Assembly (NCBI RefSeq): GCF_017921815.1
Contig: NZ_JAGEMM010000001.1
Span: forward strand, 434,001-498,000
Reading direction: 5' to 3'
DNA: 64,000 bases
Source: Microvirga antarctica
Lineage (GTDB): Bacteria > Pseudomonadota > Alphaproteobacteria > Rhizobiales > Beijerinckiaceae
The stretch's first letter is position 1; each line of letters begins with the position of its first letter. Under the pieces are notes generated by a model. That model was not told the DNA's origin, searched no databases, and was given only the letters and a program-made list of their open reading frames with translations. Positions 24,854 to 55,896 of this stretch are shown in pieces. The translations under genes and the position numbers were made by a program.

Positions 24854-25918
24854 TCATGAGCCCATCGCCCGAAGCGTGGACGCGACACCCAGTTCCCGGC
24901 CCAGTGCTGCGAGATCCTCGAACACCGCCCGATCGAGCGGCACGCCCGAGGCGGTCTTCTCCGCCGCACGCCGGTGTTCCAGTTCTCCCGGGACCAGGAC
25001 TTCATCGAACCCGGCCCGAAGCTTGCTTGTCTTGATCATGTCGATGAACCGCCCCATGCGGGACCGGTAGACCGCGACATCCATGAACCATGCGACATCG
25101 AGCGCGAGAAAGAGATGCGAGACATTCTGCCGGGAAGGGTCGGTATAAGGATCAAACCCGAACGCTCCCCCGGAAAGGACTCCCGTCATGGCATCCGTCA
25201 TGAACGAGAGGCCATAACCCTTGTATTGCCCGATCCCGAGCAGCGCCCCCGTCATCGCCGCAGTTGGGTCGTCGGTCTCCTCGCCCTCTGGCGTGAGCGC
25301 CCAATCCTTCGGCATCCGTCGTCCCTCTCGCTCAAACCATCGCATCATCCCCTTACCGGACGTCGTCAGCGCGATATCGAGTGAGACGGCAAAGCCACGG
25401 TCCGTCGGCGCGGCAATCGCCCACGGGTTTGTGCCGACGACAGCGGTCGCGCCACCCCAGGCAGCCATCTCCGGCCCCGCATTCGTCATGGCGATGCCGA
25501 CACAATCCGAGTCCACGGCCACCGCGGCGTGGACAGCCGACGAGCCGTAATGGGTGCCCCCTCTGACAAGCACGGATCCAATTCCGCAGACCTTGGCCTT
25601 CTCGACCGCAAGCTGCATGGACTTGATTCCGGTCACGCTGCCCAGACCGTTATGGGCATCCACGAGCGCCAGCGCCGGGCTTTCCTTGACGACCGAGAAG
25701 GATCCGGCAGGATCGATCTGCCGTGCGGCGATGCGGTCGCGGTAGGCACGCAACCGGCGAACGCCCTGCCCCTGGCCGGGATGGAACCGCAACTCGCTGA
25801 ACATCAAGGCAGACGCCGACAGTCTTGCTTGTTCGTCGGTGAGACCCATTGCCCGAAAGGCATCCTGGGCGAAGGCCCCGAGAGCCTCCGCGTCTACGCG
25901 GATCATCGGGATGGTCAT
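24854..25918 (-). CDS. Ldh family (malate/L-lactate/ureidoglycolate dehydrogenase type) oxidoreductase
   Basis: NAD(P)-dependent oxidoreductase of the Ldh_2 fold, 354 residues from ATG 25918, which lies 4 bp after the DUF4438 stop. Family motifs are seen: [12 protein letters not shown] with the catalytic His, [25 protein letters not shown] and [11 protein letters not shown]. Family members include ureidoglycolate dehydrogenase AllD, malate dehydrogenase and piperideine-2-carboxylate reductase. The exact substrate is unknown; the presence of ureide-type enzymes elsewhere in the island makes an AllD-like role attractive but unproven. Confidence 0.9.
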
Positions 25919-25922
25919 GCCA

Positions 25923-26801
25923 TCAGCTCTCAAGTCCGAGCAGTGAAACGAGGTTCATGTCCGCTTTGATGACCGGCTCGATCGCTCCGCCGGAATCCGT
26001 CATCAGCAGCGTCATGCCTGGCCCATATCCGGCTCGCGGGCCATCCGTCTGGCCGACGACAGCGATGCCGACCGCACCGCGCAAATAGCCATGGGAATAG
26101 CGGCTATCATAGTCGAGCAAGGCTACCACATCACCCAGCTTGAGAGTATCGAGGCCCGCTCCCCGCAGGGCGTCCTTGTCGGTCGTCTGAATATGGAGGC
26201 TGCCGCCCTCGCTGGTGAGGCCCGCACCCGCGCCAAGCAGGTGCGCCGGAATGGAAGCGACGACGGGCACCTGGAGCTTTCCGCCGGCGAGCGTGGGAGC
26301 CAGCGCGGCAAACAGCTTCGGCGAAAGACTCTTCAGCCGCATATTGGGAAAGCCCTCGATGGCCATACCGACGCCCTGGGCGCGGATCACGATCTTGTCC
26401 CCAACCGCGAAAAGCGGGCGCGTTTTCTTGGGGAAATGAACGATGACCTGTTCGGAGAAGCGGCCGGACTTGCCCGTCACCACTCCCCGTGTTCCCTTCC
26501 CCTCACCGGTCATGACGATGGCGTCATTCCCAACGCAGGCAAAGACGTTCAAACCCCGGTTTCCCAGTTCAGCCCCGTAGTGAATGCTGACCCCCGGATG
26601 CACGCAATCGGCCAGCCAGCCATAGGCGCTGTCACCGACGGAGATATTGTAGACGATTCCGCCGAATGTCGGCAGCAGGAACGGCGTACCGTCCGCTGCC
26701 AGGCGATAAGGTTCAGCCGGCAGGCCTGGAAAGCTCGGATGGACAATGTTTCCGGCGACAGAGACGGCCACCAGACGGTCTTGGTTCGTTTCAACTTGCA
26801 T
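25923..26801 (-). CDS. DUF4438 domain protein
   Basis: 292 residues, ATG at 26801. The sequence fits DUF4438: a beta-rich, glycine-rich protein with FGGIVYNISVGDSAYGWLAD, CVHPGVSIHYG and a C-terminal YSHGYLRGAVGIAVVGQTDG with GYGPGMT. No signal peptide or membrane segment. It is a tandem paralogue of the next gene upstream, with which it shares GIVYNI/GVVYNV, the VEPGVS/VHPGVS block and the final GHGPG/GYGPG loop. Function is unknown. Conserved His/Asp/Gly residues suggest a metal-binding enzyme, and context points to the first step on an imported compound. Confidence 0.85.
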   Translation of the reverse strand: MQVETNQDRLVAVSVAGNIVHPSFPGLPAEPYRLAADGTPFLLPTFGGIVYNISVGDSAYGWLADCVHPGVSIHYGAELGNRGLNVFACVGNDAIVMTGEGKGTRGVVTGKSGRFSEQVIVHFPKKTRPLFAVGDKIVIRAQGVGMAIEGFPNMRLKSLSPKLFAALAPTLAGGKLQVPVVASIPAHLLGAGAGLTSEGGSLHIQTTDKDALRGAGLDTLKLGDVVALLDYDSRYSHGYLRGAVGIAVVGQTDGPRAGYGPGMTLLMTDSGGAIEPVIKADMNLVSLLGLES

Positions 26802-26816: not shown

Positions 26817-27677
26817 TCAGCGGTCGGTGAGGCCGAAATAGCGGCCGATATTGGCGGTCTCGTCGATCGTCCACTGAATGTTAGGCGTCGCGCACGTCAT
26901 CAGCGTGAGGATACCAGGGCCATGGCCGGTCATGACGGAATCCCCGTGGATGCAGAGGCAGATGCTGACCGCGTTACGACGGTAGCTTCGTCCAAAATGA
27001 TGGTCAGCATGGTTGATGGCGATCAGATCGCCGAGCTTCATCTGGTCGATCCCGAGTTCCTTCATCAGGGCGCGGTCACCCGACATCAGGTCCTGATCCA
27101 CATATTCGCTGTTGAGTTCCGCGCCCGAGCCCATGATCCGGATCGGCAGCTCCATCGCGACCGGAAGACGAATGGTCTGACCGTCGACTGCTTCGATCCG
27201 CATGGCCTCCAGCAGGCGCGCGCTCATTTTCTTCAATTCGATATGCGGGTAGTCAATCAGTTCCAGCCCACGCCCGACAGCCTTGATCTGGATCGTGTCG
27301 CCCACCGCGAGCCCGTCGTAAACGTCGCCCGGAAAATCGACGAGCATCCGGGCGTGTTCTCCGGTGACGATGCCCCGGGCGCCTTTCGACAGACCGCTCG
27401 TCACGGTCGCCTCATTGCCGATGCAGGTGAGATAATGCAGCGCGAAGTCGTGCTTCTCGTCGCTCTGCGCGATCGACACCCCCGGCTCCACATGGTCGGC
27501 TGCCCAGCCGAAGGCCGGATCGCCTGTGCGCACGTTGTAGACCACGCCGGCCATGCCCGAGAGCACCACAGCGAGCCCCTCATTGTCGGGGATGTATCCG
27601 GGGGCTCGCAGGGTCGGTTGGCTGACGGCGCCGGAGACGGCCATTTCGATCAGTCGATCAGCGTTGGTTCGCAGCAC
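26817..27677 (-). CDS. DUF4438 domain protein
   Basis: 286 residues from a GTG at 27677 preceded by GGAGG; a longer frame further upstream would run through the promoter region and is not used. Shared blocks with the gene 15 bp downstream are GVVYNVRTGDPAFGWAAD, VEPGVSIAQ, RGIVTGEHARM and GHGPGILTLMT. This is the first gene of the minus-strand operon and is divergent from the family-5 binding protein at 27994. Two adjacent but diverged copies suggest a heteromeric DUF4438 complex or two related activities. Function unknown. Confidence 0.85.
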   Translation of the reverse strand: MLRTNADRLIEMAVSGAVSQPTLRAPGYIPDNEGLAVVLSGMAGVVYNVRTGDPAFGWAADHVEPGVSIAQSDEKHDFALHYLTCIGNEATVTSGLSKGARGIVTGEHARMLVDFPGDVYDGLAVGDTIQIKAVGRGLELIDYPHIELKKMSARLLEAMRIEAVDGQTIRLPVAMELPIRIMGSGAELNSEYVDQDLMSGDRALMKELGIDQMKLGDLIAINHADHHFGRSYRRNAVSICLCIHGDSVMTGHGPGILTLMTCATPNIQWTIDETANIGRYFGLTDR

Positions 27678-27993
27678 GGGACCTCCAATAGCCTGTCGCA
27701 GATCAGGTTCGCTACCTGGGAAGCACGATCCGCCTCTCGACGAATGGCCGCTTGACAGCCCCGGCCTCACGAACTGTATTGTATAATAATCATACAGATT
27801 GGACTTTGCGCAAGCCATCTGTTTTGATGATTTTCGAGACTGCGGCGAGGTCCTCTCAACGACCCGCCGAACGGCCCAATGGGGTCAGGGGGAACCGTCC
27901 AATGCCCGCAAGCGGGTGTGAGAGAAGGGCGACAGGATTTCGGCCGATCGCCCATGACGCCGCACAGCACTTCCTCAGAGGGAAACAAGAGCA
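27678..27993. promoter_or_regulatory. Divergent promoter region with candidate GntR operator
   Basis: This 316-bp gap separates two divergent transport/catabolism operons. It holds an AT-rich core near 27775-27800 with a TATAAT (27782-27787) and, at 27779-27789 read on the minus strand, TTATTATACAA. That is one mismatch from the FadR-type operator TNGTNNNACNA seen twice around the island's own GntR gene. An outer repeat, CTGTAT...ATACAG, brackets it. The rest shows no gene or other clear signal. Confidence 0.45.
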
Positions 27994-37109: not shown

Positions 37110-37811
37110 ATGACGATGCATCTCTCCTCACGCGCGCAAGCGCTTCTGGGCCAGTCCGGCGAGAGCCCGCCCGAAGCCGGCGTACCCATGGATCCTGCCG
37201 CCATCAGGGCGGTTCTCGACGCACTCAATCGCGGCGAGACGCATTACACTGATCGACCTGGCATTCAGCCCCTGCGCAAGAAGGTTGCTGAGGGCCTATC
37301 GCTCAAGTTCGCCCTGCCTTTTCAAGCCTCCGATATCATCATTACTTGCGGCGCCACCGAAGGCCGGTTTGTGACCCTTCAACAAATCATTGCCGCCGGC
37401 GACAATGTGGCGGCTCCCGACCATGCTGAGCGGATTGCAGGCGGGGCGGTGATCCGTGGCGCCAAGGTCAGTACGGATCTGACGGCTGCAAAACTGCTCT
37501 ATGTTGCGTCCTCATCGGGACAGACAGCGATCGAGACGTCGCTCAGTCAGGTCGCGGCTGACTGCCTGGTTCTCTTCGAGGTCGATGACGCCGAATCCGA
37601 CTTCCACCCCTCGCAGGTCAGTGGTTTCTCCGATCGGGTCATCACCGTCGGAGATCTCGGTACGATGCAAGATCTGGCGAGCGCCCGGATCGGCTATCTC
37701 GCCGCCCCGGCTCAGACCGCAAATGGCCTACGCGACTTCAAGCAGGCCCTGACGATCTGCAGCACCAACCTCTCCCAGTGGGCGGCACTTGCCGTCGTGG
37801 AGGACCTATGA
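37110..37811 (+). CDS. Truncated aminotransferase-like protein without catalytic lysine (putative accessory subunit)
   Basis: 233 residues resembling class I/II PLP aminotransferases but much shorter than the usual 380-400. Residues 40-60 (RGETHYTDRPGIQPLRKKVA) match the segment carrying the PLP-phosphate Tyr donated to the neighbouring subunit (Tyr46 here). The NPTG motif is replaced by SSSGQ, and the lysine motif SGFSKAYAMTGWR aligns with GDLGTMQDLASAR, so Lys becomes Thr185. The protein stops after LTICSTNLSQWAALA, losing the C-terminal small domain with the carboxylate-binding Arg. The stop overlaps the start of the intact aminotransferase by 4 bp (ATGA). It is therefore unlikely to be catalytic alone; a structural partner is proposed. 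A decaying duplicate is the alternative. Confidence 0.8.
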   Translation: MTMHLSSRAQALLGQSGESPPEAGVPMDPAAIRAVLDALNRGETHYTDRPGIQPLRKKVAEGLSLKFALPFQASDIIITCGATEGRFVTLQQIIAAGDNVAAPDHAERIAGGAVIRGAKVSTDLTAAKLLYVASSSGQTAIETSLSQVAADCLVLFEVDDAESDFHPSQVSGFSDRVITVGDLGTMQDLASARIGYLAAPAQTANGLRDFKQALTICSTNLSQWAALAVVEDL

Positions 37812-38977
37812 GCACGTTTGCCGACATTCAGAAACTCGATGGCGCGAAGCTTCGCTACGCGTTGATGGATCTCGCGAAAGAGGTGCCGGATGCAATTGCG
37901 CTCGGCCGCGGCGACCCGGACCTCCCGACGCCAGCATTCATTGTGGAAGCGGCGCGCAAGGCGGCGGCCGGACCTTTGGCAGTCGCTCCCCTCGCCGGCC
38001 TCCCGGCGCTTCGAGATGCTATCGCCCGAAACGCCGCCCGCGACCACGGGATAGCCGTGGGGAGCGACAATGTGCTTGTGACAACAGGCGGCCAGGAAGG
38101 CCTGTTTCTGGTCATGAGCGCTTTGCTCGATCCAGGCGATGAGATCCTTGTGCCGGACCCACGCTATTCTTCGTACGATCAGGCGATTTCCCATACAGGC
38201 GCAACCTTCGTCAGCGTTCCGACGTTTGCCGAGGAAGGCTTCGACATCCGGCCCGAGGAAGTCGAACGTCGGATCACGCCGAAAACCCGGGCGCTCCTTC
38301 TGGTAACACCCTCGAACCCGACCGGTGGCATCATCCGGCCTGAGACTGCGCTGGCGCTTGCTGAACTCGCGAAGCGGCACAATTTCGTGATCGTCTCGGA
38401 TGAGATCTATGGCAAGTTCGTCTGGGAGCCTTATCGGCATTTCAGCATTGCGTCGCTTCCAGGCATGCTCGACCACGTCATCACATTGTCTGGTTTCTCC
38501 AAGGCCTATGCGATGACAGGCTGGCGTGTGGGATACGTCATTGCGCCGGAGCGCATGATCGCCGCCATGACGGACATCAAGGCACACACGACAGGCCCCG
38601 TGGCGACACTGAGCCAGGTGGCAGCCCTGGCTGCGGCAGAGGGTGATGATAGTTGCGTGCGGGACTTTCGTGCGATTTATGACGAGCGCCGGCGCATACT
38701 CGGCAGCGGACTGAGTGCAATGGGCCTGCAATTTGGCGAGCCGCGTGGCGGATTCTTCTTTTGGGCCGACTCGTCGAGCACGGGAATGCGAGCCCTCGAG
38801 CTTTGCTACCTCCTGCTCAAAGAGGCACGGGTTCTCATCTTCCCCGGCACTGCATTCGGGGAGAGCTGGAGCAACCATCTTCGCATCACGACTCTGCAGC
38901 CGACAGAGGTTCTTGATCAGGCAGCCGAACGCATGAAAGCAGCGCTTGCCCAGATTCGAGAAGCTGGTGCCGCATGA
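37808..38977 (+). CDS. Class I/II PLP-dependent aminotransferase
   Basis: 389 residues, ATG overlapping the previous stop by 4 bp. Catalytic residues are in place: Asn170 in PSNPTGG, Asp198 and Tyr201 in SDEIYGKF, Lys232 in SGFSKAYAM, the phosphate Arg in GWRVGY, and a C-terminal LRITT Arg. The segment where nearly all relatives have Tyr (GETHYTxxxGxxxLR) reads GPLAVAPLAGLPALR, with Val59 in its place; that Tyr normally reaches into the other subunit's active site. The small protein encoded just before supplies exactly this motif. Probably transfers the amino group of an amino acid released by the island's hydrolases. Confidence 0.93.
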   Translation: MSTFADIQKLDGAKLRYALMDLAKEVPDAIALGRGDPDLPTPAFIVEAARKAAAGPLAVAPLAGLPALRDAIARNAARDHGIAVGSDNVLVTTGGQEGLFLVMSALLDPGDEILVPDPRYSSYDQAISHTGATFVSVPTFAEEGFDIRPEEVERRITPKTRALLLVTPSNPTGGIIRPETALALAELAKRHNFVIVSDEIYGKFVWEPYRHFSIASLPGMLDHVITLSGFSKAYAMTGWRVGYVIAPERMIAAMTDIKAHTTGPVATLSQVAALAAAEGDDSCVRDFRAIYDERRRILGSGLSAMGLQFGEPRGGFFFWADSSSTGMRALELCYLLLKEARVLIFPGTAFGESWSNHLRITTLQPTEVLDQAAERMKAALAQIREAGAA

Positions 38978-44424: not shown

Positions 44425-45972
44425 TTACTTGAAGCTCGCTGTCAGCACATCGATCCGCTCGTCACGGCGCGGTTCCCAGTTCAATCGATTGCTGATCCCA
44501 TAAAAGTCGGGTTGGAAATACATCATGATCCACGCCGGGTCGCGATAGAAAATTTCCAGCATCTCGTTGACAATCTTCTCCTCTTCCTTCGGATCGCGAA
44601 TGCCGGCAAGGCTATCCCAGCGCTTCTGCCATTCCGGATTGAACCACATGCCATTGTTGACCGGCGCCTCGCGCGACGGGAACAGCGCCATGTCATAGAC
44701 GGCGCTCCACGTGACACCACCCTGCCCGATGAAGTAGAGCGGTCCAGCGCGGTGCTCCCGCGCCGCGGGCGAGAAGGTCGAGACAAAATCCTGGATCTCG
44801 ACCTTGGTCTTGATGCCGATATCATCGAGGTACTGCCCGACCGCTTGAACCACCGAAACGTCGTTCAGATAACGCCCACGGGGACCCTGGAGAGTGAGCT
44901 CGAACCGCACATTGTCGGCGCCTCGCTTGTAGCCCGCCTTATCGAGCATCTCCTCAGCTTTCTTGGTGTCAAACGGATAAGGCTTGAGCGCTGGGTTGGC
45001 GACGTTTGCCGGGCCGGTTGCGCGGGTGCAATCAAAGGAGAGCAGTTGCTGGCAAATAGTGGGAACGTCGACCGCCATGTTGAGCGCCTGTCGGACCTCG
45101 GCTTTCTGGATTGCCTCGCCACCTTTCGTCGCCTTGAACGTCTCATTGAAGTTAAAGCCGACGAACATGCGCCGCGTACCCGTAACGGGCTTCACGATCG
45201 CCCGGTTACTCATCGCAATTGCTTTCTGCTGGTCCGGCAGAACATTGGTGATAATATCGGCATTGCCCGAGATCAATTCCGCCACGCGCGTGCTCGCCTC
45301 CGGCACGGCCCGCCAGATGAGCGTCTTGAACGGTGCAGGACGGAGCTTGAATCCGTCCACGCGATCGAGGACCACCCGATCGTCCTTCTTCCACTCTCTG
45401 AGCTTGTAGGGACCTGATCCGAAAGGCCGGGTCGCCGCCTGTTCGTAGCTCATGCCCTCATAGGCGTTCTTGCAAACGATATAGGCCTGGGCGAGCATGC
45501 CCGGCGCAATTGACTGATACTTCTTCAGAAGAACCGTGGCGGAGTACTCGCTGTCTACCCGAGCATCGACGAACCCGATCGTTGGGTACACGAAGCTCGC
45601 GATATTGCCGTTGAGCTTCTTGTCGGCCGCACGCTTCAGCGAGTAGGCCACATCCTCTGCCTTGATCGGCGTGCCGTCCTCGCAGGTCTGGCCGGGTTTG
45701 ATCTTGAAGGTCAGCTCGGTTCCCGCGTCGTTCCAGGAATAGCTCTCCGCCAGATAGGGCTGGACCTCACCTGAGGCTGTGACCTGAACCAGGGTCACCC
45801 AAATATGGTTAGCAACGTTGATCGAGCCTGAGGCGTTCAGGGCATGCGGCTCGAGGGATTCGACGTCGACGCTTTGGGCAATCGTCAGAGTATCGCGCGC
45901 GCCCTGGGCGAAAGCCGCAGATTGACTGACGCACAACGCTGCAGCGCTGGCACATATGATCCAATGTCGCAT
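44425..45972 (-). CDS. ABC transporter substrate-binding protein, family 5 (SBP_bac_5)
   Basis: 515 residues with signal peptide (MRHWIICASAAALC...AAFAQG). Third member of the paralogous set with the proteins at 21054 and 27994, sharing GTPIKAEDVAYSLKRAAD-like sequence, FGSGPYKLREW, and the same Cys motifs TCEDG, VCKNA, TIC and DCTRAT. It is the last gene of the minus-strand block, 136 bp after the OppF stop, and has its own possible operator upstream (46045-46055). It probably feeds a permease encoded elsewhere in the island. Confidence 0.92.
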   Translation of the reverse strand: MRHWIICASAAALCVSQSAAFAQGARDTLTIAQSVDVESLEPHALNASGSINVANHIWVTLVQVTASGEVQPYLAESYSWNDAGTELTFKIKPGQTCEDGTPIKAEDVAYSLKRAADKKLNGNIASFVYPTIGFVDARVDSEYSATVLLKKYQSIAPGMLAQAYIVCKNAYEGMSYEQAATRPFGSGPYKLREWKKDDRVVLDRVDGFKLRPAPFKTLIWRAVPEASTRVAELISGNADIITNVLPDQQKAIAMSNRAIVKPVTGTRRMFVGFNFNETFKATKGGEAIQKAEVRQALNMAVDVPTICQQLLSFDCTRATGPANVANPALKPYPFDTKKAEEMLDKAGYKRGADNVRFELTLQGPRGRYLNDVSVVQAVGQYLDDIGIKTKVEIQDFVSTFSPAAREHRAGPLYFIGQGGVTWSAVYDMALFPSREAPVNNGMWFNPEWQKRWDSLAGIRDPKEEEKIVNEMLEIFYRDPAWIMMYFQPDFYGISNRLNWEPRRDERIDVLTASFK

Positions 45973-46044
45973 ACCTGACTGTCCCTCTCATGCCGCCGGC
46001 CCCGGACACGGCCCGGCAACGATCCACCCAATCGACCAAGGGAA

Positions 46045-46055
46045 GTGTAAGACAA
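46045..46055 (-). promoter_or_regulatory. Weak FadR-type operator candidate upstream of binding-protein gene
   Basis: Read on the minus strand it is TTGTCTTACAC, one mismatch (last base) from TNGTNNNACNA. It lies about 73 bp ahead of the 45972 start, in the only sizeable gap of this operon, where an internal promoter would be expected. Confidence 0.3.
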
Positions 46056-46108
46056 CTAGACAGAAAACGCCAGAACTGCCCCGATTGTGCCTGGCGGCGC
46101 ATCCACCC

Positions 46109-47140
46109 TCAAGTCGCAGCGAAACGTGGGAGCAGATCGTCGATCTCGGAGCTTCTCCAGCAGGCAGCCATGGAAGATCCGGACGCACTCGGCGTCAAGG
46201 GTGGCGCCTCCTGCGCACAATGGGCGACCGCGATCGGACAGCGGGTGACAAACCGGCAACCCTTCGGCGGGTTGAGAGGACTCGGAAGTTCACCTTGGAG
46301 AACGATGCGCCGGCGCGCCCGCTCGACCTTTGGGTCTGGGATGGGAACGGCACTCAGGAGCGAGCGGGTATAGGGATGACGCGGATTGGCATAGACCTCC
46401 CGGCGCTCTCCAATCTCAGCCACCCGCCCCAGATACATGACAGCCACGCGGTTGGAGATGTGCTGTATCACGCTCAGCCCATGGGCGATGAAAAGATACG
46501 TCAGGCCCAGCCGCGCCTGCAGATCCTGCAAAAGATTCACCACCTGCGCCTGAACCGAGACGTCGAGAGCGGAGACGGGTTCGTCGCAGACGATGAGATC
46601 AGGCTCGCAGGCGAGAGCCCGGGCGATGCCGATCCGTTGGCGCTGACCGCCGGAGAACTCGTGCGGATAGCGGGACATATATGTGGGCGCCAGCCCGACC
46701 AGGGACAGCAGTTCCTTCACGCGGTCCGTAATGGCAGCCTCGCCCTGACGCAGATTGTGAAGCCTGATGGGCTCCGCAATCGCCCTGCCGACGCTCATGC
46801 GCGGATTGAGGCTTGCGTAAGGATCCTGAAAGATCAGCTGGATGCGCCGCCTCAGCTTACGCATTGCTTCCGGCGAGGATGTCGCCAAATCCTCGCCATT
46901 GAACGAGATGCTCCCCGACGTAATGGCGTTGAGCTGCAGGATTGCACGGCCAATGGTGGTCTTGCCGCACCCGCTTTCGCCCACAAGACCGAGGGTCTCT
47001 CCCCGCCTGATATCGAAACTAACGCCATCGACAGCTTTGACGACGCCGGGCGATTTCCCGAATAGAAACGGGCTGCGGACAGGAAAGTGGACATGGAGGT
47101 CAGAAATCGACGCAATCATCTCTGGCGGGGCCGTTCTCAT
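46109..47140 (-). CDS. Oligopeptide/dipeptide ABC transporter ATP-binding protein (OppF/DppF type)
   Basis: 343 residues, ATG overlapping the OppD stop by 4 bp. Walker [10 protein letters not shown], signature [11 protein letters not shown], Walker [13 protein letters not shown] and the oligo_HPY motif [11 protein letters not shown] are complete. In this block it lies with OppD downstream of an epimerase and oxidoreductase gene rather than next to its permeases, which are at 54050-55896 in the same transcription direction. Confidence 0.93.
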
Positions 47141-48147
47141 AGGGCAATCGCTTCTGAAGATGTATGCAGCAAGGTCGGAACGTCCTCAGCAAAATGGCAG
47201 GCCGCCATGTGATCGGGTCGCACCTGCCTGAGGGGTGGTGCTTCGCGGAGACAGAGTTGCTGCGCGATGTCGCATCGGGGTGCGAACCGGCAGAAATTGG
47301 CTTGGCCGACGGGCTCCGCCGGCAACCCGCGGATCGGAGTCAGACGATCCTCGTCAGGCCGATCGAGCCTTGGTGTGGACCGCAGCAATCCAACTGTGTA
47401 GGGCATGCGTGGCTCTTCGAAGACACAATCCGTGCTGCCCTGTTCCACGATGCGGCCGCCATACATAACCGCGATCCGATCGGCCATCCCGGCGACTACG
47501 CCGAGATCATGCGTGATAAGGATCAGCGCCATGCCAAATTCCCGCTGCAGATTCTTGAGAATGTCGAGAATCTGTGCCTGGATCGTCACGTCCAATGCGG
47601 TCGTGGGCTCATCTGCGATGAGAAGCCGAGGCTTGCACGCGACAGCGATCGCAATCATCACGCGCTGACGCATGCCGCCCGAGAAATGATGAGGATAGTC
47701 GCCGAGCCGCCGTTCAGGCGACGGGATGCCAACGAGCGACAGAAGTTCGATGGCGCGCGCTTTGGCCCGGCCGCCGCGCATACCCTCCTGAACCTCAAGA
47801 ATTTCGGTGATCTGACGACCGATGGTGAGAACCGGATTGAGGGACGTCATCGGATCCTGGAAGATCATGGAGATCTCCCGTCCGCGCACATCGCGAATCT
47901 CGCTGTCGGACATGGCCAGAATGTCCCGCCCATCAAAATCGATGGACCCTCCGACGACGCGGCCAGGCTTGGAGATCAACCGGATGAGCGACAGCCCTGT
48001 CACCGACTTGCCCGAGCCGGACTCCCCCACGACGCCGAGGGTCTCGCCCTTTCCAACGGTGAAAGACACATCGTCCACGGCACGCACGCCCGATTGTTCG
48101 TTTCCGAAACGGACCTTCAAGCCGGACACGGTCAGGATAGGTTTCAT
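47137..48147 (-). CDS. Oligopeptide/dipeptide ABC transporter ATP-binding protein (OppD/DppD type)
   Basis: 336 residues with Walker A GESGSGKS, signature [11 protein letters not shown], Walker [15 protein letters not shown]. The C-terminal region has the FCRFAPRC Cys motif. ATG 48147 overlaps the epimerase stop by 4 bp. Paralogous to the 23776 protein; likely couples with OppF immediately downstream to power the permeases of the minus-strand block. Confidence 0.93.
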
Positions 48148-49106
48148 GCGCGCACCTGCGTGTTGGCCAACACTTCGGCAATGCCGTCTTCAATAGAACG
48201 CGGGCGAAAGCCCACGGCGCCGCTAATGCGCTCGATGGAAAAGACCGGCCGCGCATCTGACGCAATAACGTCGATCTCCGCTGTGCCGCCGTTGGCCCAA
48301 GGGAGCCCGCGACCATGGGCGCGGAAGATCCCAACGAGGCGGCGCCAGCCCACAGGCTCGCCGCCGCCGATATTGTAGATCCTGTGTTCAAGAGCCGGCG
48401 CCTTGATGAGCGCTGCGATCCCGATCGCGACATCGTCCGCATGAACCCAGTCGCGTACAACTTCCTGCGGCGAGACCGCCGTCTCAGGCTGGGCCATTGC
48501 CAGCCTGTGGACCAGACTTGTTCGATGTCGGGTCGCCGTCTGCCGCTCCATCGCACCATAAACCGAAGCAAGCCGGACGGCGATTGTGGAGACGTCACGG
48601 ATCTCGCCAAGACGGAGCGCGATCCCTTCGGCTGCGACCTTCGTGACGCCATAAAGCATCGTGGGATTAAGGATCACGTCCTCACCGACGGGTGCGTCGT
48701 AGCTTGCCGCGGGGCCAAGGACTGCGGCGCTGGACACGACAACGATGCGACGCAGGCAACGCAAACGCGTGCCGGCGTCGACGATTGCGAGCGTCCCCCC
48801 GATATTGACGTCGACAACGGCGGAAGGGTTCTCCGATTCCATCTCGGGCGTCGGCGTCAAGGCGGCCGCGTGCACGATCTCGGTCGGTTGAAACCGTTCG
48901 AGAACAGTTGCGACCGCGACCTTATCGGTCACATCGAGGACAGTAGGCTCGATCCGGTCGCTAGATGCCCCCCAGTAGGCGAGGACATCGGAGCCAGGCG
49001 GCGCCATGTCGGTTGCAAGGATCCGTGCCTTAGGAAACGCTTCGGCCAATCCGCGGATCAAGTGAGCTCCCAGAAAGCCGCAGGCTCCTGTCACGAGAAT
49101 TTTCAC
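48144..49106 (-). CDS. NAD-dependent epimerase/dehydratase family protein (extended SDR)
   Basis: 320 residues starting at a GTG that overlaps the Gfo/Idh stop by 4 bp. TGACGFLGAHL is the extended-SDR NAD motif; VVVSSAAV and YGVTK supply the catalytic Ser/Tyr/Lys. No membrane segment. Members act on nucleotide sugars, sugar acids or other hydroxyl compounds; with a Gfo/Idh partner, oxidation of a sugar or polyol moiety is plausible but unproven. Overlaps at both ends mean it is an integral part of this operon. Confidence 0.9.
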   Translation of the reverse strand: MKILVTGACGFLGAHLIRGLAEAFPKARILATDMAPPGSDVLAYWGASSDRIEPTVLDVTDKVAVATVLERFQPTEIVHAAALTPTPEMESENPSAVVDVNIGGTLAIVDAGTRLRCLRRIVVVSSAAVLGPAASYDAPVGEDVILNPTMLYGVTKVAAEGIALRLGEIRDVSTIAVRLASVYGAMERQTATRHRTSLVHRLAMAQPETAVSPQEVVRDWVHADDVAIGIAALIKAPALEHRIYNIGGGEPVGWRRLVGIFRAHGRGLPWANGGTAEIDVIASDARPVFSIERISGAVGFRPRSIEDGIAEVLANTQVRA

Positions 49107-50143
49107 GCCGACACCTCAAGGCCGTGCCGACGGCGAAATTCGCGCATGTCGATACGCCTCCCGGTATCGTCGGCCTCGATAGCCGCAAAGCACAAGGCCA
49201 AGGTATTGAGGTGATCCCGTCCACTGCATGGCACTGGCCGCCCTTCTTCAATCGCCGTAATGAAGTCATCGAGAAGCGCGCGGGTATCATCAAGAAAAGG
49301 AACGCATTCGGCGAGCGGTACAGGTGTCAATGTCTTCTCGTCCGTCCGAACAGTGCTGAGATTGGAGAACAACTCCTGCTGCAAGATGACGCCATCCTCA
49401 CAATCCGTGCGCCACTGGAATTTCAATTCGTTCCAGCCCCCTGTCCACGTCCCGAGGTAGTCGACCTCGAGTCCACCCTCGAGGGTCAGCAGACAGGACA
49501 CATTGGCGTCGTGCGCATAGACGCTCCACGACGGATTCCAGCTTCGACATTGAACGGCTTCGACTTCGCGACCATAGCAGAACCTGATCAGGTCGAGATG
49601 GTGAATGCTTTGCTCGAGCATCATCGGATGAAGCATCGTTAACGGGTAGGTGTTCATGCCGGGACGCCACCAGTCGCGGTTGCGGTGGTAATTGAACGTC
49701 CCGAACCCGGCAGCGCCGAGTGTGTTATCGCGGACAAGACGCCGGATCGCCTGACTCACCGGGAGATAACGAAAATTTAATCCGACGGCGAGCGGGCAGG
49801 CCTGCGATTCTGCGAGAACCACGATCTCCAAGGCGTCGGCAAGATCGAGCGTGAGCGGTTTTTCCGCCAGCAGCGGCAATCCTGCCGCGAACACCAAACG
49901 GGCTTGGTCAAGATGGCCATCGGGTGGCGTCACTAGCAGCACCGCGTCCGCCCGGACTTCACGTAATGCCGCTTCCAGATCCTCAAAGGCCGCGAATTCG
50001 CCAAACTCGGCCTTGAATGCACCGATCCGCGCCGGATCGGCGTCGACGATTCCGGCAAAGGTCGCGCCGGGGTGATCCGCAATGATACGCCCCCACATGC
50101 GCCCGCGATTACCCAAGCCGACCTGGAGGATGCGAAACACCAC
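49103..50143 (-). CDS. Gfo/Idh/MocA family oxidoreductase
   Basis: 346 residues with a GTG start at 50143 (a second GTG follows immediately), 2 bp after the aminotransferase stop. Motifs: VGLGNRGRMWGRI, LLAEKPLT with the catalytic Lys, LNFRYLPVSQA and HPMMLEQSIHHLDLIRFCY. Strong full-length resemblance to the 41587 protein on the other strand, so the two operons carry duplicate oxidoreductases. NAD(P)-dependent; substrate unknown. Confidence 0.9.
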   Translation of the reverse strand: MVFRILQVGLGNRGRMWGRIIADHPGATFAGIVDADPARIGAFKAEFGEFAAFEDLEAALREVRADAVLLVTPPDGHLDQARLVFAAGLPLLAEKPLTLDLADALEIVVLAESQACPLAVGLNFRYLPVSQAIRRLVRDNTLGAAGFGTFNYHRNRDWWRPGMNTYPLTMLHPMMLEQSIHHLDLIRFCYGREVEAVQCRSWNPSWSVYAHDANVSCLLTLEGGLEVDYLGTWTGGWNELKFQWRTDCEDGVILQQELFSNLSTVRTDEKTLTPVPLAECVPFLDDTRALLDDFITAIEEGRPVPCSGRDHLNTLALCFAAIEADDTGRRIDMREFRRRHGLEVSA

Positions 50144-50145
50144 GG

Positions 50146-51333
50146 TCAGGTCTTGAAGACGCGGCTGCGCGCCGATTTGATGCGTGAGATGGCTTCCTCG
50201 ATGCGGTGCTTGGGCTGAAGAAGGCTCATGCGCACATAGCGATCGTCAGGATCGGCAAACAGCATGCCGGGTTGGACGAGAACCCGCGCTTCGGCGAGGA
50301 GCTTCCCGCAGAACTCGGTTGCGGGAAGACCGCTCGCTTCAATATTGGTGTAGACATAGAACGCGCCCGCGGGCTCGCCATACGAGAACCCCAGTTCGTC
50401 AAGTCCCCTGAGCAGGACCTCACGCCTCGACGAGTAGATAGCCAGCATCTCCTTCACCGCGTCCTGAGGGCCGGTCGCAGCCGCGAGAGCCGCCCATTGC
50501 GAAGGCGTGCAGGCGTTGATGCTCAGCGTATGACGGGGTTCGACCATCCGCTGAATAAACGGCTGGGGGGCGGCGAGATATCCAATTCGCCAGCCGGTCA
50601 TGGCATGGGATTTAGAAAAGCCGTTCATCGTGATTGTGCGATCGCGCATGCCCGGCAGGGTCCCGATCGATAGATGTTCGGCACCATCGAACAGAAGCGT
50701 AGCGTAGATTTCATCTGAAACGACAATGATATCGTGTCGCTTGGCGATTTCGGCAATCTCCCGGATGGCGTCGGGAGGTGTCACGGCGCCGGTCGGGTTG
50801 TTCGGGGTGATGAGCACCAGCATCTTCGTGCGCGGCGTGATGCGGGCTTCGATTTCAGCGGGAACCAGCGCGAACTTGTCCTTCTGATAAGTCGGCACCG
50901 AGACCACGACCCCGCCGCACAACTCGACTGCAGTATCATAGGATGTGAACCGCGGGGACGGCAGGAGAACTTCATCTCCGGGATCGACCAGCGCGAGCAT
51001 GAGCAGCATCACGCCTTCCTGCGTGCCTGCCGTCACCAATGTCTCTTCGGCGGTGTAATCGAGGCCGAAGTCTCGGTTGAGGAGATCTGCGATCGCCTGC
51101 CGAAGCTTCGGCATTCCGGAGGGATGCGTGTAGTGGGTCTCCCCCCGAGCAATCGCCTCTCGCGCCGCCTCCGCGATGTGAGGGGGCGTCGGAAGGTCAG
51201 GGTCACCCAGACCCATCGCGATGACGTCTTCCAGCTTGGCTGCTTGTTCAATCAGCTTCGTTCGATAGACAGCGTCCTTGGCCGGCACGCGCTGAGCAAG
51301 CGACCTCATTAATCTTGGCGTTGTAGAGTCCAT
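50146..51333 (-). CDS. Class I/II PLP-dependent aminotransferase
   Basis: About 395 residues from ATG 51333; a TTG at 51339 overlapping the previous stop is the alternative. It is a complete enzyme: Tyr68 in GETHYTHPSGMPKLR, NNPTGA, SDEIYATL, Lys241 in NGFSKSHAMTGWRIGY. In contrast to the pair at 37110-38977, all cross-subunit residues are present in this single chain. The small protein at 37110 resembles it (RIGYLAAP, SQWAALA), which suggests that protein arose from a relative of this gene. Confidence 0.93.
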   Translation of the reverse strand: MDSTTPRLMRSLAQRVPAKDAVYRTKLIEQAAKLEDVIAMGLGDPDLPTPPHIAEAAREAIARGETHYTHPSGMPKLRQAIADLLNRDFGLDYTAEETLVTAGTQEGVMLLMLALVDPGDEVLLPSPRFTSYDTAVELCGGVVVSVPTYQKDKFALVPAEIEARITPRTKMLVLITPNNPTGAVTPPDAIREIAEIAKRHDIIVVSDEIYATLLFDGAEHLSIGTLPGMRDRTITMNGFSKSHAMTGWRIGYLAAPQPFIQRMVEPRHTLSINACTPSQWAALAAATGPQDAVKEMLAIYSSRREVLLRGLDELGFSYGEPAGAFYVYTNIEASGLPATEFCGKLLAEARVLVQPGMLFADPDDRYVRMSLLQPKHRIEEAISRIKSARSRVFKT

Positions 51334-51335
51334 CC

Positions 51336-52562
51336 TCAAACCATCCTCTTGCCTTCGAGGAATGTCATACGGACGGAGCCGATGGCGTTGATATCCTCGA
51401 GGGGATTGCCGTCCACGACGATCACGTCGGCAAGCTTGCCGGCCTCAAGCGTCCCGATCTTGGAGTCGAGCTTGCTCATTCTAGCAGCAACGATCGTCGC
51501 GCTGCGGATCGCGTCATAGGCGTCCTTTTTGACACCGACCTTGATCATGAACGCCAGTTCCGGAGCGATGACGTCGTGGGCCACCGCGGGACTGCCGCAA
51601 TCCGTCCCAAACACAATGGTGACGCCAGCCTTGGCGGCATCGACGAGGCCCTGGTAGCGCGACGTGTCAGCAACCTGCTTCTGCCGCTCGGCGATCTTCC
51701 AGTCCGGAATGTTGAACTTTCGCGCAATCTCGGGCTGACTTTGGACGACGACAGGCGCGAAGGTCGTCACGATCGGGACGTTACGTTCTACCAGAAGCGC
51801 GATGGTCTCGGCGCTCATGCTGCCGCCGTGCTCGATTACATCTACCCCGGCGAGGACGCAGCGGCTAATGCAGGAATCGAATGTCGCATGCGCCGTCACT
51901 GTCAGGCCATTGCGATGCGCTTCGTCGACGACCGCCTCTAACTCATCGTCGGTGAATTCCAGCGTGTCGTGGCAGGCCATGATCTTGATCAGATCCGCGC
52001 CACCACGCACCTGCTCGCGAACGGCGCGACGCATTTCGTCGGCTCCGCTTGCTTCGCGGCAGCACCAGTAAGTATGTCCACCCGTCTGGATGATCGCCTC
52101 ACCACACACGATCAGGCGGGGACCTGGGAAGATCCCCTGGGCCACTGCCTGCTTGGCCACAAGATTGGTCTTGTTCATCCCCAGGTCGCGGAACGTGGTG
52201 ACGCCCGCACGCAGGTTGATGAGCATATTGCTCGCGCACTTGTAGGCACTGAGCTCAGGCGCATCGTTCATCGCCTGGGCTGCCAGATCGTGAATTCCGT
52301 CCCAGGCCAGATGTCCGTGGCTCTGGACCAGACCCGGAAGGATCGTTCCATTCGTCTGTATGGCATCATCTGCGCTGGTGCCAAACTCGGATGCAGGCCC
52401 GACCTTCTTGATGGTCGAACCTTCAATTTCAACAATCCCATCCTCGATGATCTGATCATCAACGCAGGTCAGGACACGACCACGCAAGAGGTGATGGCCG
52501 GTCTCCTGGTTGACCATCGGGCGGATGATTTTCTGGAAACGCCAGGGGGCCTGTTCAGGCAT
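51336..52562 (-). CDS. Amidohydrolase family protein (imidazolonepropionase/prolidase-like)
   Basis: 408 residues of metal-dependent amidohydrolase. HxH in QSHGHLAWDG, His in VTAHATFDS, His in VIEHGGS and Asp in FGTDCGSP form the metal centre; the C-terminus has GKLADVIVVDGNPLEDI, typical of the imidazolonepropionase-like (MJ0884/Sgx9260) branch, members of which act on N-acylated or Xaa-Pro-like dipeptides. No signal peptide. Its stop overlaps or abuts the aminotransferase start, so hydrolysis and transamination are coupled genetically. A second member of the branch is cut by the right window edge. Confidence 0.9.
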   Translation of the reverse strand: MPEQAPWRFQKIIRPMVNQETGHHLLRGRVLTCVDDQIIEDGIVEIEGSTIKKVGPASEFGTSADDAIQTNGTILPGLVQSHGHLAWDGIHDLAAQAMNDAPELSAYKCASNMLINLRAGVTTFRDLGMNKTNLVAKQAVAQGIFPGPRLIVCGEAIIQTGGHTYWCCREASGADEMRRAVREQVRGGADLIKIMACHDTLEFTDDELEAVVDEAHRNGLTVTAHATFDSCISRCVLAGVDVIEHGGSMSAETIALLVERNVPIVTTFAPVVVQSQPEIARKFNIPDWKIAERQKQVADTSRYQGLVDAAKAGVTIVFGTDCGSPAVAHDVIAPELAFMIKVGVKKDAYDAIRSATIVAARMSKLDSKIGTLEAGKLADVIVVDGNPLEDINAIGSVRMTFLEGKRMV

Positions 52563-52598
52563 GGGACACTCGTTTGTTCGAAATGGAGGTGGGGATTA

Positions 52599-54047
52599 TC
52601 ATGAGGCGGCAGTTTCTGCTCGGGTCGGCTTCAGGCCCAGTTCTTCCAAGGCCCGTGCGCCGCCGTCGAGATTAGTTAAGTTCATTCCTGCGTAGTTGGG
52701 CGAATAGACCACGCCCTCGCCGCCGGCCCGATAGGTCGCCAGAACGCTGCGGTAGACGATGTCGGGCGTGCAAATCGCCTGATCGGCGCGCAACCTGGGT
52801 GCATCGACACCGATGCCCATATAAACGGCAGCCTTGCCCTTGCACCCGCGAACCGCGTCAGCGCACTGGCCGTAAACGTAAGTGTCGGGATCCATCCCGG
52901 CCTGGATCACCTCATCGATCGGTGCTTCCTGCAATCCGAGGATCTTGTACATGGCCGGCACGAATTCCTGCTTTGTGAAGTCCCGCAAGATCGTGTTTCC
53001 GAAGAAGCCCATCTCCTTGTCGAACACCTCGCCTGCCTGATGCTGGTAGGTGATCGGCTTGACCCAATCCGCATAGTCAGTCTGCTCCTCCCATGACCAT
53101 TGAGCGCGCCGAATGGGATTGAAATGATTGCGGTTCCAGACATTGAGTCCAAACGACAGATTAGGGTTGCACCACTTCACGATGCCATAGAGTTCCCGAT
53201 CGAGATCCTTCGAGCGATCAAGCCACATGCGCTCCCAAACCAGTATCTCAGGATTGCGCAGCAACACGCGGAGGAACTCCAGGAAAGCGCCGTCGACGAA
53301 AGTCTCTCCAGCGCGCACCTTCTTGAAGAAGTCCCAGACCTCGAAGAACGCGATGCGGACGCGCTCCACGTCAATCCCCCGCTCCACTGCCTCCTTCCGG
53401 CAATGCGGACAGAAGCACCCCGGAGCCTGGCCCTGCATCATGCGATCAAGCGGCGAATTGCGCTCGTTGCACCACATGATTCCGTCGATGTCGTAATTGC
53501 GCACGTGCTCCTCGACGATGCCGTGCCACCAGCGCCGGTAATCGGGATTCGACGTGCAAGGCTCTCCAGCATACCGGCCCAACAGGTCCACTTCGAGGCA
53601 TTGCGGCATGTTGGGGATCTTGACCGCTGCCGCCGACCCATGACCCGCATACTTGAACAATGGCTCCATGAATTCCGGAACGATCTTCATGCCCCGCTCG
53701 CGCGCCTTCGGGATGACCAGATCCAGGATGTCCCGCCCTGCCATCTCCGGATCGCGCGAGGCGAAATCCTTGATGAAGGTGTTCGTGTAGTATTCCGGCC
53801 GAACCTTCAGATAGGAACCGCCCTCCATCGAATAGGGTGCGGCGACACCGTGATCAGGCCATCCCTCCAGCGCGTGGCTGATGCGCCGGCCAACCTTCAA
53901 ACCGAGCCAGGAGATTGTGCCGATCAGCAGCGCGTTGATGCCGAGACGGTCCTGGAGGGTGTCCAGCACTTCGTCGACGCCTTCGTCGATGAAGCTGATC
54001 GGGCTGATCTGGATGCCGACGAACGGATCTGATTTTGTTGGCGTCAC
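52599..54047 (-). CDS. Unassigned TIM-barrel (glycoside-hydrolase-like) protein with C-x-C-x2-C motif
   Basis: 482 residues from a GTG at 54047 with GGAGAG upstream, starting 2 bp after the permease stop. The layout (ISPISFIDEGVDEVL, PEFMEPLF, YDIDGIMWCNERNSPLD, FLRVLLRNPEILVWERMW, LSFGLNVWNRNHFNP) resembles the alpha-amylase/GH-like TIM barrels of uncharacterised hydrolases, with several acidic residues at strand ends. An unusual CFCPHCRKE cluster near residue 230 looks like a small metal knuckle. No signal peptide, so it is cytosolic. I do not recognise a characterised family. Its position between transporter and amidohydrolase suggests an early step on the imported compound, perhaps removal of a sugar-like group. 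Confidence 0.8.
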   Translation of the reverse strand: MTPTKSDPFVGIQISPISFIDEGVDEVLDTLQDRLGINALLIGTISWLGLKVGRRISHALEGWPDHGVAAPYSMEGGSYLKVRPEYYTNTFIKDFASRDPEMAGRDILDLVIPKARERGMKIVPEFMEPLFKYAGHGSAAAVKIPNMPQCLEVDLLGRYAGEPCTSNPDYRRWWHGIVEEHVRNYDIDGIMWCNERNSPLDRMMQGQAPGCFCPHCRKEAVERGIDVERVRIAFFEVWDFFKKVRAGETFVDGAFLEFLRVLLRNPEILVWERMWLDRSKDLDRELYGIVKWCNPNLSFGLNVWNRNHFNPIRRAQWSWEEQTDYADWVKPITYQHQAGEVFDKEMGFFGNTILRDFTKQEFVPAMYKILGLQEAPIDEVIQAGMDPDTYVYGQCADAVRGCKGKAAVYMGIGVDAPRLRADQAICTPDIVYRSVLATYRAGGEGVVYSPNYAGMNLTNLDGGARALEELGLKPTRAETAAS

Positions 54048-54049
54048 TA

Positions 54050-54958
54050 TTATCTCTCCATCCGCATGCGCGGGTCGAGCGCGGATCGGAGACCGTCGCC
54101 CACGAGGTTGCAGGCCACCACCACGCTGAGAATGGCGAACCCGGGAAATGTTGAAATCCACCATGCCCGATTGAGGACCTCACGGCCTTCGGCCGACATG
54201 AGACCCCATTCGGGTGTCGGAGGCTGCGCGCCCAGCCCGAGGAAGCTCAGCCCGGAACCGATGAGGATCGCGTTGCCGACCTGGAGTGTGCTGAGGACCA
54301 GAACGGGAGCGTAGGCGTTGACCAGCACGTGAAAGAACATGATCCGCCACGTCGGATTGCCGACGACGCGGGCGGCTTCCACATAGGGCAATTCCTTGAT
54401 CGACAGCACGCTGCTGCGCACCAGCCGCGCGTAGAGGGGCATCGTTGCGATGCCGACCGCAATCATCACGTTGCGGATGCTCGGGCCAAGTGCCGCGATG
54501 ATCACAAGCGCCAGCAGGATGCTTGGCAGCGCCAGCAACGCGTCGATAAAGCGGGACAAAAGTGTGTCGACACGGCCTCCGACATAGCCCGCAATAAGAC
54601 CAATGAGGACGCCGGGCACCCCACCCATCACGACACTGATTACGCCAAGCTGCAGCGAGATCTGAGCGCCGACGAGAATACGGCTCAAAAGATCGCGACC
54701 AAGGAGATCAGTGCCGAGCCAGAACTCCGCCGATGGCGGCCTGCGAGGGCGGGAGATCATCGCGAGCGGGTCGTGTGGCGCAATCGCGGGACCAAGAATA
54801 GCCACGATCGCCCAGAAGACGAGCAGGATCGCACCAAGGACAGCGCCTTTGTTGCGCGCAAACACGCGTAGCCATTGGAACTTTCGAACTTGGCGAACCG
54901 GCTGGTCCTCGAACGAGAGCACGGCCGCAGGCATGTTGGGTGGTGATCCCATCTGCAT
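54050..54958 (-). CDS. Dipeptide-type ABC transporter permease (DppC/OppC type)
   Basis: 302 residues, ATG at 54958, 2 bp after the partner permease stop. LGTDLLGRDLLSRILVGAQ near the second segment, the EAA loop LPYVEAARVVGNPTWRIMF and LSFLGLGAQPPTPEWG are standard. Inner membrane. Forms the channel with the DppB-type protein encoded directly upstream; ATPases are probably those at 46109-48147. Confidence 0.93.
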   Translation of the reverse strand: MQMGSPPNMPAAVLSFEDQPVRQVRKFQWLRVFARNKGAVLGAILLVFWAIVAILGPAIAPHDPLAMISRPRRPPSAEFWLGTDLLGRDLLSRILVGAQISLQLGVISVVMGGVPGVLIGLIAGYVGGRVDTLLSRFIDALLALPSILLALVIIAALGPSIRNVMIAVGIATMPLYARLVRSSVLSIKELPYVEAARVVGNPTWRIMFFHVLVNAYAPVLVLSTLQVGNAILIGSGLSFLGLGAQPPTPEWGLMSAEGREVLNRAWWISTFPGFAILSVVVACNLVGDGLRSALDPRMRMER

Positions 54959-54960
54959 GG

Positions 54961-55896
54961 TTAGGCCCCATACCGGATTCGTGGATCGAGCCAGGCATAG
55001 GCTAGATCAACGAGGAGATTCACCAGGAGATAGACAGCCGCAAGAAAGACAATGCAGCCCTGGACGAGCGGATAATCCTTCTGGAGGATTGCCGACACCA
55101 CAAGCCGCCCGATCCCGGGCCGGCTGAAAACCGTCTCAATCACGACGGCACCGGCGAGCATCGCCCCAAACTGCAGTCCAAGCATCGTGATCACGGGGAT
55201 CATCGCATTTTTGAGTCCATGCCGCCACAGGATAAGCCGTTCGCCGAGGCCCTTCGCGCGTGCAGCGCGAATGTAGTCTTCCGACAAGACTTCGACCATG
55301 CTCGATCGGATCAGACGACTGATAACCCCAGCAGAGACAATGCCGAGAGTCATCGCCGGGAGCACAAGTGATCGCCAGCTATCAGCACCTGCCGGCGGAA
55401 ACCAGCCGAGATTGAAGGAGAAGAGCAGGATCATGACCAGCCCGACCCAGTAGACCGGCATCGATGCACCCACGTAGGCAAAGCCCATGGCAAATACATC
55501 GATCCATGAGTTCTGGCGGACCGCCGCTAGCATGCCCAGGGGCAGACCAACGGCCAGGGAGATGAACAGGCCTCCGAGTGAGAGCGCAATCGTCGATCCG
55601 AACCGGTCGAGGATAAGCTCGGTCACCGGCGTGCGGAATCGAATCGATTCACCGAGGTCGCCGACAAGAGCACCTCCGATGAAACGACCGAACTGGACGA
55701 CGAGCGGGTCGTTCAGTCCCATCTGTTCCTTGAGCTCCATGAGCCTTTCCGGCGTGATCGCCCCGCCCTCTGCGCCGGCGAGCATGAGTTCTGCCGGATC
55801 ACCCGGCAGAACATGCATGATCGCGAACACGACGAGGGAAATGATGAACAGCACAGGGATGAGCTGCATCACGCGGCTGAGAAGATAGCGGCTCAT
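54961..55896 (-). CDS. Dipeptide-type ABC transporter permease (DppB/OppB type)
   Basis: 311 residues with six membrane helices. MSRYLLSRVMQLIPVLFIIS start, VFAIMHVLPGDPAELML after the first helix, and the EAA loop EDYIRAARAKGLGERLILWRHGLKN are seen. It follows the binding-protein gene at 55946 with a 49-bp gap that contains a stem-loop. Confidence 0.93.
   Translation of the reverse strand: MSRYLLSRVMQLIPVLFIISLVVFAIMHVLPGDPAELMLAGAEGGAITPERLMELKEQMGLNDPLVVQFGRFIGGALVGDLGESIRFRTPVTELILDRFGSTIALSLGGLFISLAVGLPLGMLAAVRQNSWIDVFAMGFAYVGASMPVYWVGLVMILLFSFNLGWFPPAGADSWRSLVLPAMTLGIVSAGVISRLIRSSMVEVLSEDYIRAARAKGLGERLILWRHGLKNAMIPVITMLGLQFGAMLAGAVVIETVFSRPGIGRLVVSAILQKDYPLVQGCIVFLAAVYLLVNLLVDLAYAWLDPRIRYGA

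Follow-up and report, generated by a model that had tools for sequence, protein, structure and literature searches.

An overlapping pair of aminotransferase-like genes

The window that we analyzed, a 64,000-nucleotide stretch of the Microvirga antarctica genome, contains two adjacent open reading frames that encode proteins of 233 and 389 amino acids and share the four bases ATGA (Table 1). Pfam family Aminotran_1_2 matches the large chain across residues 28-375 (E 8.2e-69) and the small chain in part only (residues 22-104, E 8.2e-08). Textbook aminotransferases are homodimers with two shared active sites, and in the fold of aspartate aminotransferase (AspAT) Tyr70 and an Arg hold the phosphate of PLP. 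In our alignment, Tyr46 of the small chain occupies the column of Val59 in the large chain, and Thr185 of the small chain that of Lys232. The small chain is gapped at the large-chain Asn170 and Tyr201 columns and has no NPTG motif, and the large chain has six PLP residues (Asn170, Asp198, Tyr201, Lys232, Arg240 and Arg359). Judged as a class I/II aminotransferase, the large chain falls short in one respect, its own Tyr70 equivalent, which a self-sufficient homodimer needs and which here is Val59; the small chain falls short in the Lys, replaced by Thr185, and in its incomplete C-terminal domain.

Predicted models of the single chains are in line with this assignment. The large-chain model (mean pLDDT 93.6) has a standard aminotransferase fold and superimposes on 1gd9_A with a Z score of 55.0 and an rmsd of 1.3 over 373 residues. 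Residues 4-233 of the small-chain model (mean pLDDT 83.7) align to residues 19-285 of the 388-residue 1j32_A (Z 24.9, rmsd 3.7 over 230 residues), so its predicted fold is an N-terminal arm plus PLP domain with the C-terminal domain missing. An earlier note on this DNA had described the gene overlap, a small protein that keeps Tyr46 and lacks the catalytic Lys, NPTG and the C-terminal domain, and a large protein with all the expected residues except that Tyr; the reading frames, the alignment and, for the small protein, the predicted model bear this description out.

A single-gene aminotransferase paralogue in the same window has both Tyr and Lys (L173, L185) and provides an internal control. 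Nine relatives outside the pair in the window's own genome (G000; L173-L181), this paralogue included, retain Lys and Tyr. One distant, partial match there (L182, 75 bits) has Lys and a Gly at the Tyr column; we take its alignment as unsure because the Asn and last Arg columns also misfit.

Table 1. Positions in the window of the gene pair, its key residues and related features
Feature	Position	Strand
Ldh_2 family dehydrogenase, frequent neighbor of pairs in other phyla	24854..25933	-
DUF4438 protein B, frequent neighbor of pairs	25923..26801	-
DUF4438 protein A, frequent neighbor of pairs	26817..27818	-
Small partner chain (predicted aminotransferase PLP domain with its N-terminal arm; catalytic Lys and C-terminal domain lacking)	37110..37811	+
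Small Tyr46, within HYTDRPGI; AspAT Tyr70 column	37245..37247	+
Small Arg49, three residues past Tyr46	37254..37256	+
Small Thr185, in the catalytic Lys column	37662..37664	+
Small residues 211-223, "296-loop" KQALTICSTNLSQ, including Cys217	37740..37778	+
ATGA, stop of the small gene overlapping start of the large gene	37808..37811	+
Large catalytic chain (class I/II aminotransferase; full cis active site, Tyr70 equivalent lost)	37808..38977	+
Large Val59, at the trans-Tyr position	37982..37984	+
Large Asn170 (AspAT Asn194)	38315..38317	+
Large Asp198 and Tyr201 (AspAT Asp222 and Tyr225)	38399..38410	+
Large Lys232, PLP lysine	38501..38503	+
Large TTGPVA loop, corresponding to the 296 loop of the partner	38588..38605	+
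Single-gene aminotransferase paralogue, Tyr and Lys kept	50146..51339	-
VOC/glyoxalase-like protein; its type is encoded immediately before the pair, on the upstream side, in Trueperaceae loci L022 and L023	59769..60260	-

Collection of paired and unpaired relatives

Relatives were collected by two routes. A scan of genome contigs with the small chain used the patterns RGETHY and GLRDFKQ, so loci L021-L039 were selected for those motifs. It detected truncated partners in Microvirga arvi, Trueperaceae and Anaerolineae/Chloroflexi, full-length relatives in other Chloroflexi, Thermomicrobiales and Sphaerobacter, and one Dormiibacterota relative that ends at a contig end. The large gene is next downstream in 18 of these 19 loci; the remaining one (L036) is cut by a contig end. 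The aminotransferases among L040-L100 share the motif bias and were excluded as controls. L042, L056, L059, L064, L066, L067, L082, L088 and L100 were used for alignment depth, with L056, L082 and L088 as reference rows in some trees and alignments.

The second route used the large chain alone, a query that does not select for a partner, in overlapping groups of genomes. Matches above 480 bits were present in at least 7 of 298 genomes (class of G438), 3 of 400 (phylum of G451), 6 of 111 (phylum of G434, Trueperaceae), 7 of 158 (class of G449), 1 of 398 (the window's phylum, the match being its own) and 2 of 151 (phylum of G448). These counts are lower bounds because a second branch of pairs, described below, scores about 360-425 bits.

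A first sample, made up of the best matches listed, gave 36 paired large chains (two with Tyr) and 31 singletons. Reading 40 more matches added 15 pairs, eight of them Tyr-keeping, and 25 singletons (27 with L184 and L186). Duplicates were removed (L002, L101, L102, L132, L135, L136, L150, L153 and L155), and L036, L143 and L156, at contig ends, and L167 were excluded from the counts; two of these, L143 and L156, are truncated before the Tyr column. The counts below cover the matches read, with many weaker ones and some second matches outside, and comprise 51 paired large chains, the window's included (50 with an adjacent partner, plus L154), and 58 relatives with no partner seen, meaning none in the upstream DNA examined, usually more than 1 kb (less than 1 kb for L114, L118, L144, L145, L158, L200 and L223).

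Residue conservation differs between paired and unpaired chains

The equivalents of Asn, Asp, Tyr225, Lys, Arg266 and Arg386 are each present in all 51 paired large chains, and the Tyr70 equivalent is present in 10. The Tyr column of the remaining 41 holds Pro (18), Leu (8), Val (6), Ala (3), Ser (2) or, once each, Met, Phe, Ile and His. The 50 adjacent partners all have this Tyr; Lys occurs in two of them (L035 and L107), Asn in three and Tyr225 in two, and 27 have the C-terminal Arg, the remaining 23 ending before it. Partners also retain residues that act in cis, namely Arg266 (30/50) and Asp/Glu222 (49/50). All seven residues are present in each of the 58 relatives with no partner seen.

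Two further columns behave like that of the Tyr. The small-chain Cys217 column, in the 296-type loop, holds Cys in all 50 partners, in 2 of the 51 paired large chains and in 21 of 58 singletons, which agrees with the earlier note's proposal that this loop is a second trans element. Likewise, the His45 column is His in every one of the 50 partners, in 1 of 51 paired large chains and in 50 of 58 singletons. At the small Arg49 column, 32 of the adjacent partners have Arg and 18, of the second branch, have Val; Arg is absent from this column in the 36 paired large chains and 31 singletons compared, and we consider that Arg49 may touch the substrate. The search motifs were considered, and ruled out, as a cause of Tyr retention: 31 of the 50 partners were found through the large chain only, and all 31 keep Tyr, His45 and Cys217.

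The earlier note had asked whether loss of the Tyr and presence of a small partner always occur together. One direction stands, in that all 41 Tyr-less large chains have a Tyr-bearing partner in the genome, directly upstream in 40 cases and unlinked in one (L154, genome G1277), and none of the 58 partnerless relatives has lost the Tyr. The converse fails, as shown by the 10 paired large chains that retain it. Strict reciprocal loss was therefore replaced by a pattern that is relaxed in pairs and fixed without them, eight of the 15 further pairs having large chains that keep Tyr. With a partner present, constraint on the large-chain Tyr is relaxed, and the residue can go but is not always lost.

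Distribution, trees and selection

Related pairs are retained in dozens of other bacterial genomes, from three or more phyla, and share the residue pattern of the window's pair. The nearest relative of the window's pair belongs to the same genus (M. arvi; identity 54% for the small and 82% for the large chain), and a close small chain was found in 2 of 37 genomes of that genus. In the large-chain tree both Microvirga sequences fall inside an otherwise Deinococcota group (support 98/93), a placement that would be expected from transfer.

By a quick method, the 51 paired large chains form one clade (SH-aLRT 99), with the other 58 sequences on one side of the branch. A more careful 70-row tree, in which the labels for Lys-less partners were assigned by hand, grouped the 36 paired large chains then known (100/99). 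In a joint 72-row tree (quick method), partners occupy one side of a branch and paired large chains another, with an SH-aLRT of 100 each; one duplication would therefore have given both lineages. Within the paired clade the tree requires at least four changes of Tyr state, against none in the 58 unpaired rows. Pairing has a single origin on this tree, so repeated origins provide no test of its association with Tyr loss. The comparison draws its force instead from Tyr changes that recur in pairs and nowhere else, from the unlinked exception and from the loop that shows a matching pattern. Distances of the two chains are correlated (0.95 over 35 pairs), and linkage alone could explain the similarity of their trees; a test on independent pairs had only two pairs and no power.

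Nei-Gojobori dN/dS ratios are 0.14-0.31 for the small gene in seven comparisons and 0.07-0.11 for the large gene in the six that were computable. The small gene is under purifying selection, and its ratio exceeds the large-gene value by a factor of about two to three in the six comparisons that have both. Of 35 adjacent pairs inspected for a four-base ATGA or GTGA overlap, 25 have a possible one, a count that precedes the 15 later pairs. A pseudogene or frameshift artefact is ruled out by dN/dS below 1 and by the identity to M. arvi, and neither chance nor decay accounts for the small gene, because the pattern recurs in other phyla and dN/dS is 0.14-0.31.

Transitional pairs and a second branch

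Other branches have full-length partners, and some pairs are transitional. Both chains appear intact in L035, whose genes (8053-9243 and 9219-10400) have an ATGA overlap; this locus may be a surviving relative of the ancestral form. In L037 the partner has Ala for Lys and the large chain retains Tyr. L107 combines a large chain with Met for Tyr and a partner that retains Lys and has Leu for Tyr225. G448 holds a partner without Lys (L036) and a large chain with Val (L167), both at contig ends and outside the counts. For the Tyr-less L154 no partner lies within 1.5 kb, and a search of its genome found L159 on another contig. L159 is related to the L151 partner at 47% identity, has Thr for Lys and keeps Tyr. 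The reading frame after L159 resembles, by eye, an FAD-dependent oxidoreductase.

A second branch (branch B) comprises 18 pairs (L112, L113, L147, L189, L191-L199, L201, L203, L204, L211 and L214). Its partners are full length, with Pro (17) or His (1) in the Lys column and Arg in the Asn column. Its large chains have Tyr in 8 of 18, and otherwise Ser, Ala, His, Pro, Val or Phe; the eight Tyr-keeping chains have lost His45 and Cys217, and with L035 and L037 make up the 10 Tyr-keeping paired large chains. Branch B coexists with a pair of the first kind in 15 genomes, those of all 15 later-added pairs, and each of these genomes therefore has two such systems.

The states seen comprise an apparently intact pair (L035), loss of the Lys alone (L037), loss of the Tyr alone (L107), a missing Lys combined with a variable Tyr column (branch B), both lost with a full-length partner, and both lost with a truncated partner (23). 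Loop strings, compared by eye, contain [TA]TG[PA] in all 23 large chains whose partner lacks the C-terminal domain vs none of the 28 others; because the 23 form one clade, they count as one event. We speculate that a homodimer became an obligate one-site heterodimer by steps that are still alive, with either the Lys or the Tyr going first, and that the dead half was not simply lost but rebuilt with a [TA]TG[PA] loop facing the empty side, a scenario we regard as possible and hold tentatively. If so, the loop might favor the binding of a bulky substrate or the docking of another protein of the pathway.

Genomic context

Many pairs are accompanied by a VOC protein, two DUF4438 proteins and an Ldh_2 dehydrogenase, and often also by a dipeptide-type ABC transporter, an AstE/AspA-like deacylase, an amidohydrolase, and M20 and M14 peptidases. 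Genes of these types lie at 24.8-27.8, 27.9-44.4 and 58.8-60.3 kb of the window. None of them was found in the flanking DNA examined for L035, L037 and L038; many loci in this survey have a 1.5 kb flank only, so absence there means little. The two DUF4438 genes adjoin each other, and the couple recurs beside aminotransferase pairs in several phyla. A DUF4438 homologue of solved structure, TM1086 (3dcl, 3n99), is listed as uncharacterized, and the open-access literature that we searched yielded no mention of the family.

The segment from 44425 to 63812, on the minus strand, encodes peptide transporters, a Gfo/Idh protein, the single aminotransferase with Tyr and Lys, an M24 peptidase, PuuE and an AstE-like protein. 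It lies beside the first group and opposite to it, as if two related catabolic units adjoin. Family models that might name a substrate (GntC, L-sulfolactate dehydrogenase, DoeB and methylmalonyl-CoA epimerase) all scored below cut-off. Taken together, the peptide transporter, peptidases and deacylase, Ldh_2 dehydrogenase, DUF4438 couple and VOC protein suggest that the pair acts in the breakdown of an amino-acid conjugate taken up by the cell.

A proposed heterodimer with one composite active site

We consider it probable, with some confidence, that the pair forms an obligate heterodimer of aminotransferase type with one composite PLP site. The complex, the donation in trans and the reaction are what we infer from the residue pattern and its conservation, the distribution, selection on both genes, the single clade formed by each chain and the predicted fold of each. 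This reading is favored because paired large chains, partners and partnerless relatives differ in residue pattern; because the one genome without a neighboring partner, G1277, keeps an unlinked one; because the small gene is under purifying selection and often has the possible start-stop overlap; because the Tyr changes repeatedly in the paired clade and never outside it; and because the two chains form separate clades and the predicted small fold retains the arm and PLP domain. The window's pair retains exactly one set of site residues, with the cis residues and C-terminal domain on the large chain and the Tyr and loop on its partner.

In the proposed mechanism, the large chain would bind PLP via Lys232 and contribute the C-terminal domain together with every cis residue. 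The small chain would pack on it in the place that the second subunit has in an ordinary fold-type I dimer, with Tyr46 reaching the PLP phosphate across the interface, the 296-type loop around Cys217 donated in the same direction and Arg49 perhaps donated to the substrate. The second site would be dead, the Lys, Asn motif and C-terminal domain of the small chain being gone. Large-chain residues once donated to that site (Tyr, His and the loop Cys) could then drift freely, and the TTGPVA loop of the large chain would face the dead half. This type of pair would go back to a single duplication of an ordinary aminotransferase gene, after which both genes would have moved together from phylum to phylum.

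Several observations count against the heterodimer. The 10 Tyr-keeping large chains could still work alone, though eight of them lack His45 and Cys217, and the partners in L107 and L035 have Lys. Moreover, partners hold the cis residues Arg266 and Asp/Glu222, pairing is a single tree change, linkage alone could give similar trees, and AspAT without Tyr70 is weakened, not dead.

Alternatively, the heterodimer may exist and carry out other PLP chemistry, such as cyclization, elimination or racemization; we think this unlikely, if worth keeping in view. GntC, a PLP cyclodehydratase (NF041364), ranks first among the NCBIfam models for either chain, and the scores of 304.6 bits (large) and 70.5 bits (small) are far below its cut-off of 415 bits and so do not place either chain in that family. 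Against this, the large chain scores nearly as high, 276-260 bits, on several aminotransferase models and has all PLP residues tested.

A role for the small chain as a pseudoenzyme that does no more than stabilize, chaperone or regulate the large chain, whose site would work without a trans Tyr, seems rather improbable. It would fit the faster evolution of the partner, the Tyr-keeping minority of paired large chains and the fact that AspAT does not absolutely require Tyr70, but it leaves unexplained why every one of the 50 partners has Tyr46, His45 and Cys217 when the large chain varies at these columns. That the enzyme is a homodimer of large chains and the small gene a decaying or unrelated leftover, as truncation and Lys loss might suggest if one genome were seen alone, is very improbable given the dN/dS of the small gene, recurrence of pairs across phyla, unlinked retention in G1277, and the scarcity of a substitute Tyr, there being none in the window's large chain within seven residues from the Tyr column onward and, among the Tyr-less large chains compared for a nearby Tyr, one only in L104.

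If the heterodimer is real, it would show how an interface site becomes an obligate heteromer, split between a catalytic chain and a half-size donor, and enzymology on the intermediates that survive could test in which order the steps occurred. There is also a warning for annotation: the small gene resembles a broken pseudogene and the large one a complete enzyme, and neither may work alone.

Comparison with known systems

Glycine decarboxylase GcvPA/GcvPB is a fold-type I enzyme from two genes with the PLP Lys in one only; unlike the pair, it belongs to another family and has full-length subunits. For ACC synthase, a Lys mutant is complemented by a Tyr mutant. Plant ACC synthases, which have the aminotransferase class I fold, form shared-site dimers and paralogue heterodimers, according to parts of PMC10813531 and PMC1199607; unlike in the pair, their homodimers are active and pairing is optional (the same part of PMC10813531). 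Homodimeric aspartate/prephenate aminotransferases (1j32, 1gd9, 6f5v) share the fold of both chains and the cis residues of the large chain and, unlike the pair, have Tyr and Lys on a single chain. No described heterodimeric aminotransferase of this kind was found in the open-access literature searched, and the part of PMC9081730 available to us names none.

The nearest parallel is eukaryotic serine palmitoyltransferase, a fold-type I enzyme in which SPT1/SPT2 (LCB1/LCB2) form a heterodimer of paralogues, one without the PLP Lys and other residues; as in the pair, a dead paralogue stands beside a catalytic one, presumably with one active site (from the portion of PMC6148460 consulted). By this comparison, 48 of the 50 adjacent partners lack the Lys beside a catalytic chain. 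Serine palmitoyltransferase and alpha-oxoamine synthase models are absent among the Pfam matches and the best 25 NCBIfam matches listed for our chains. SPT is an alpha-oxoamine synthase and SPT1 is full length, whereas the pair belongs to the aminotransferase family, with another reaction, and the window's partner lacks the whole C-terminal domain. Unlike in SPT, the catalytic chain here has lost residues that the partner keeps, and intermediates are preserved. SPT1/SPT2 thus appears to be the closest known system, and, as far as the open-access literature searched shows, an aminotransferase-family heterodimer with a truncated partner would be new.
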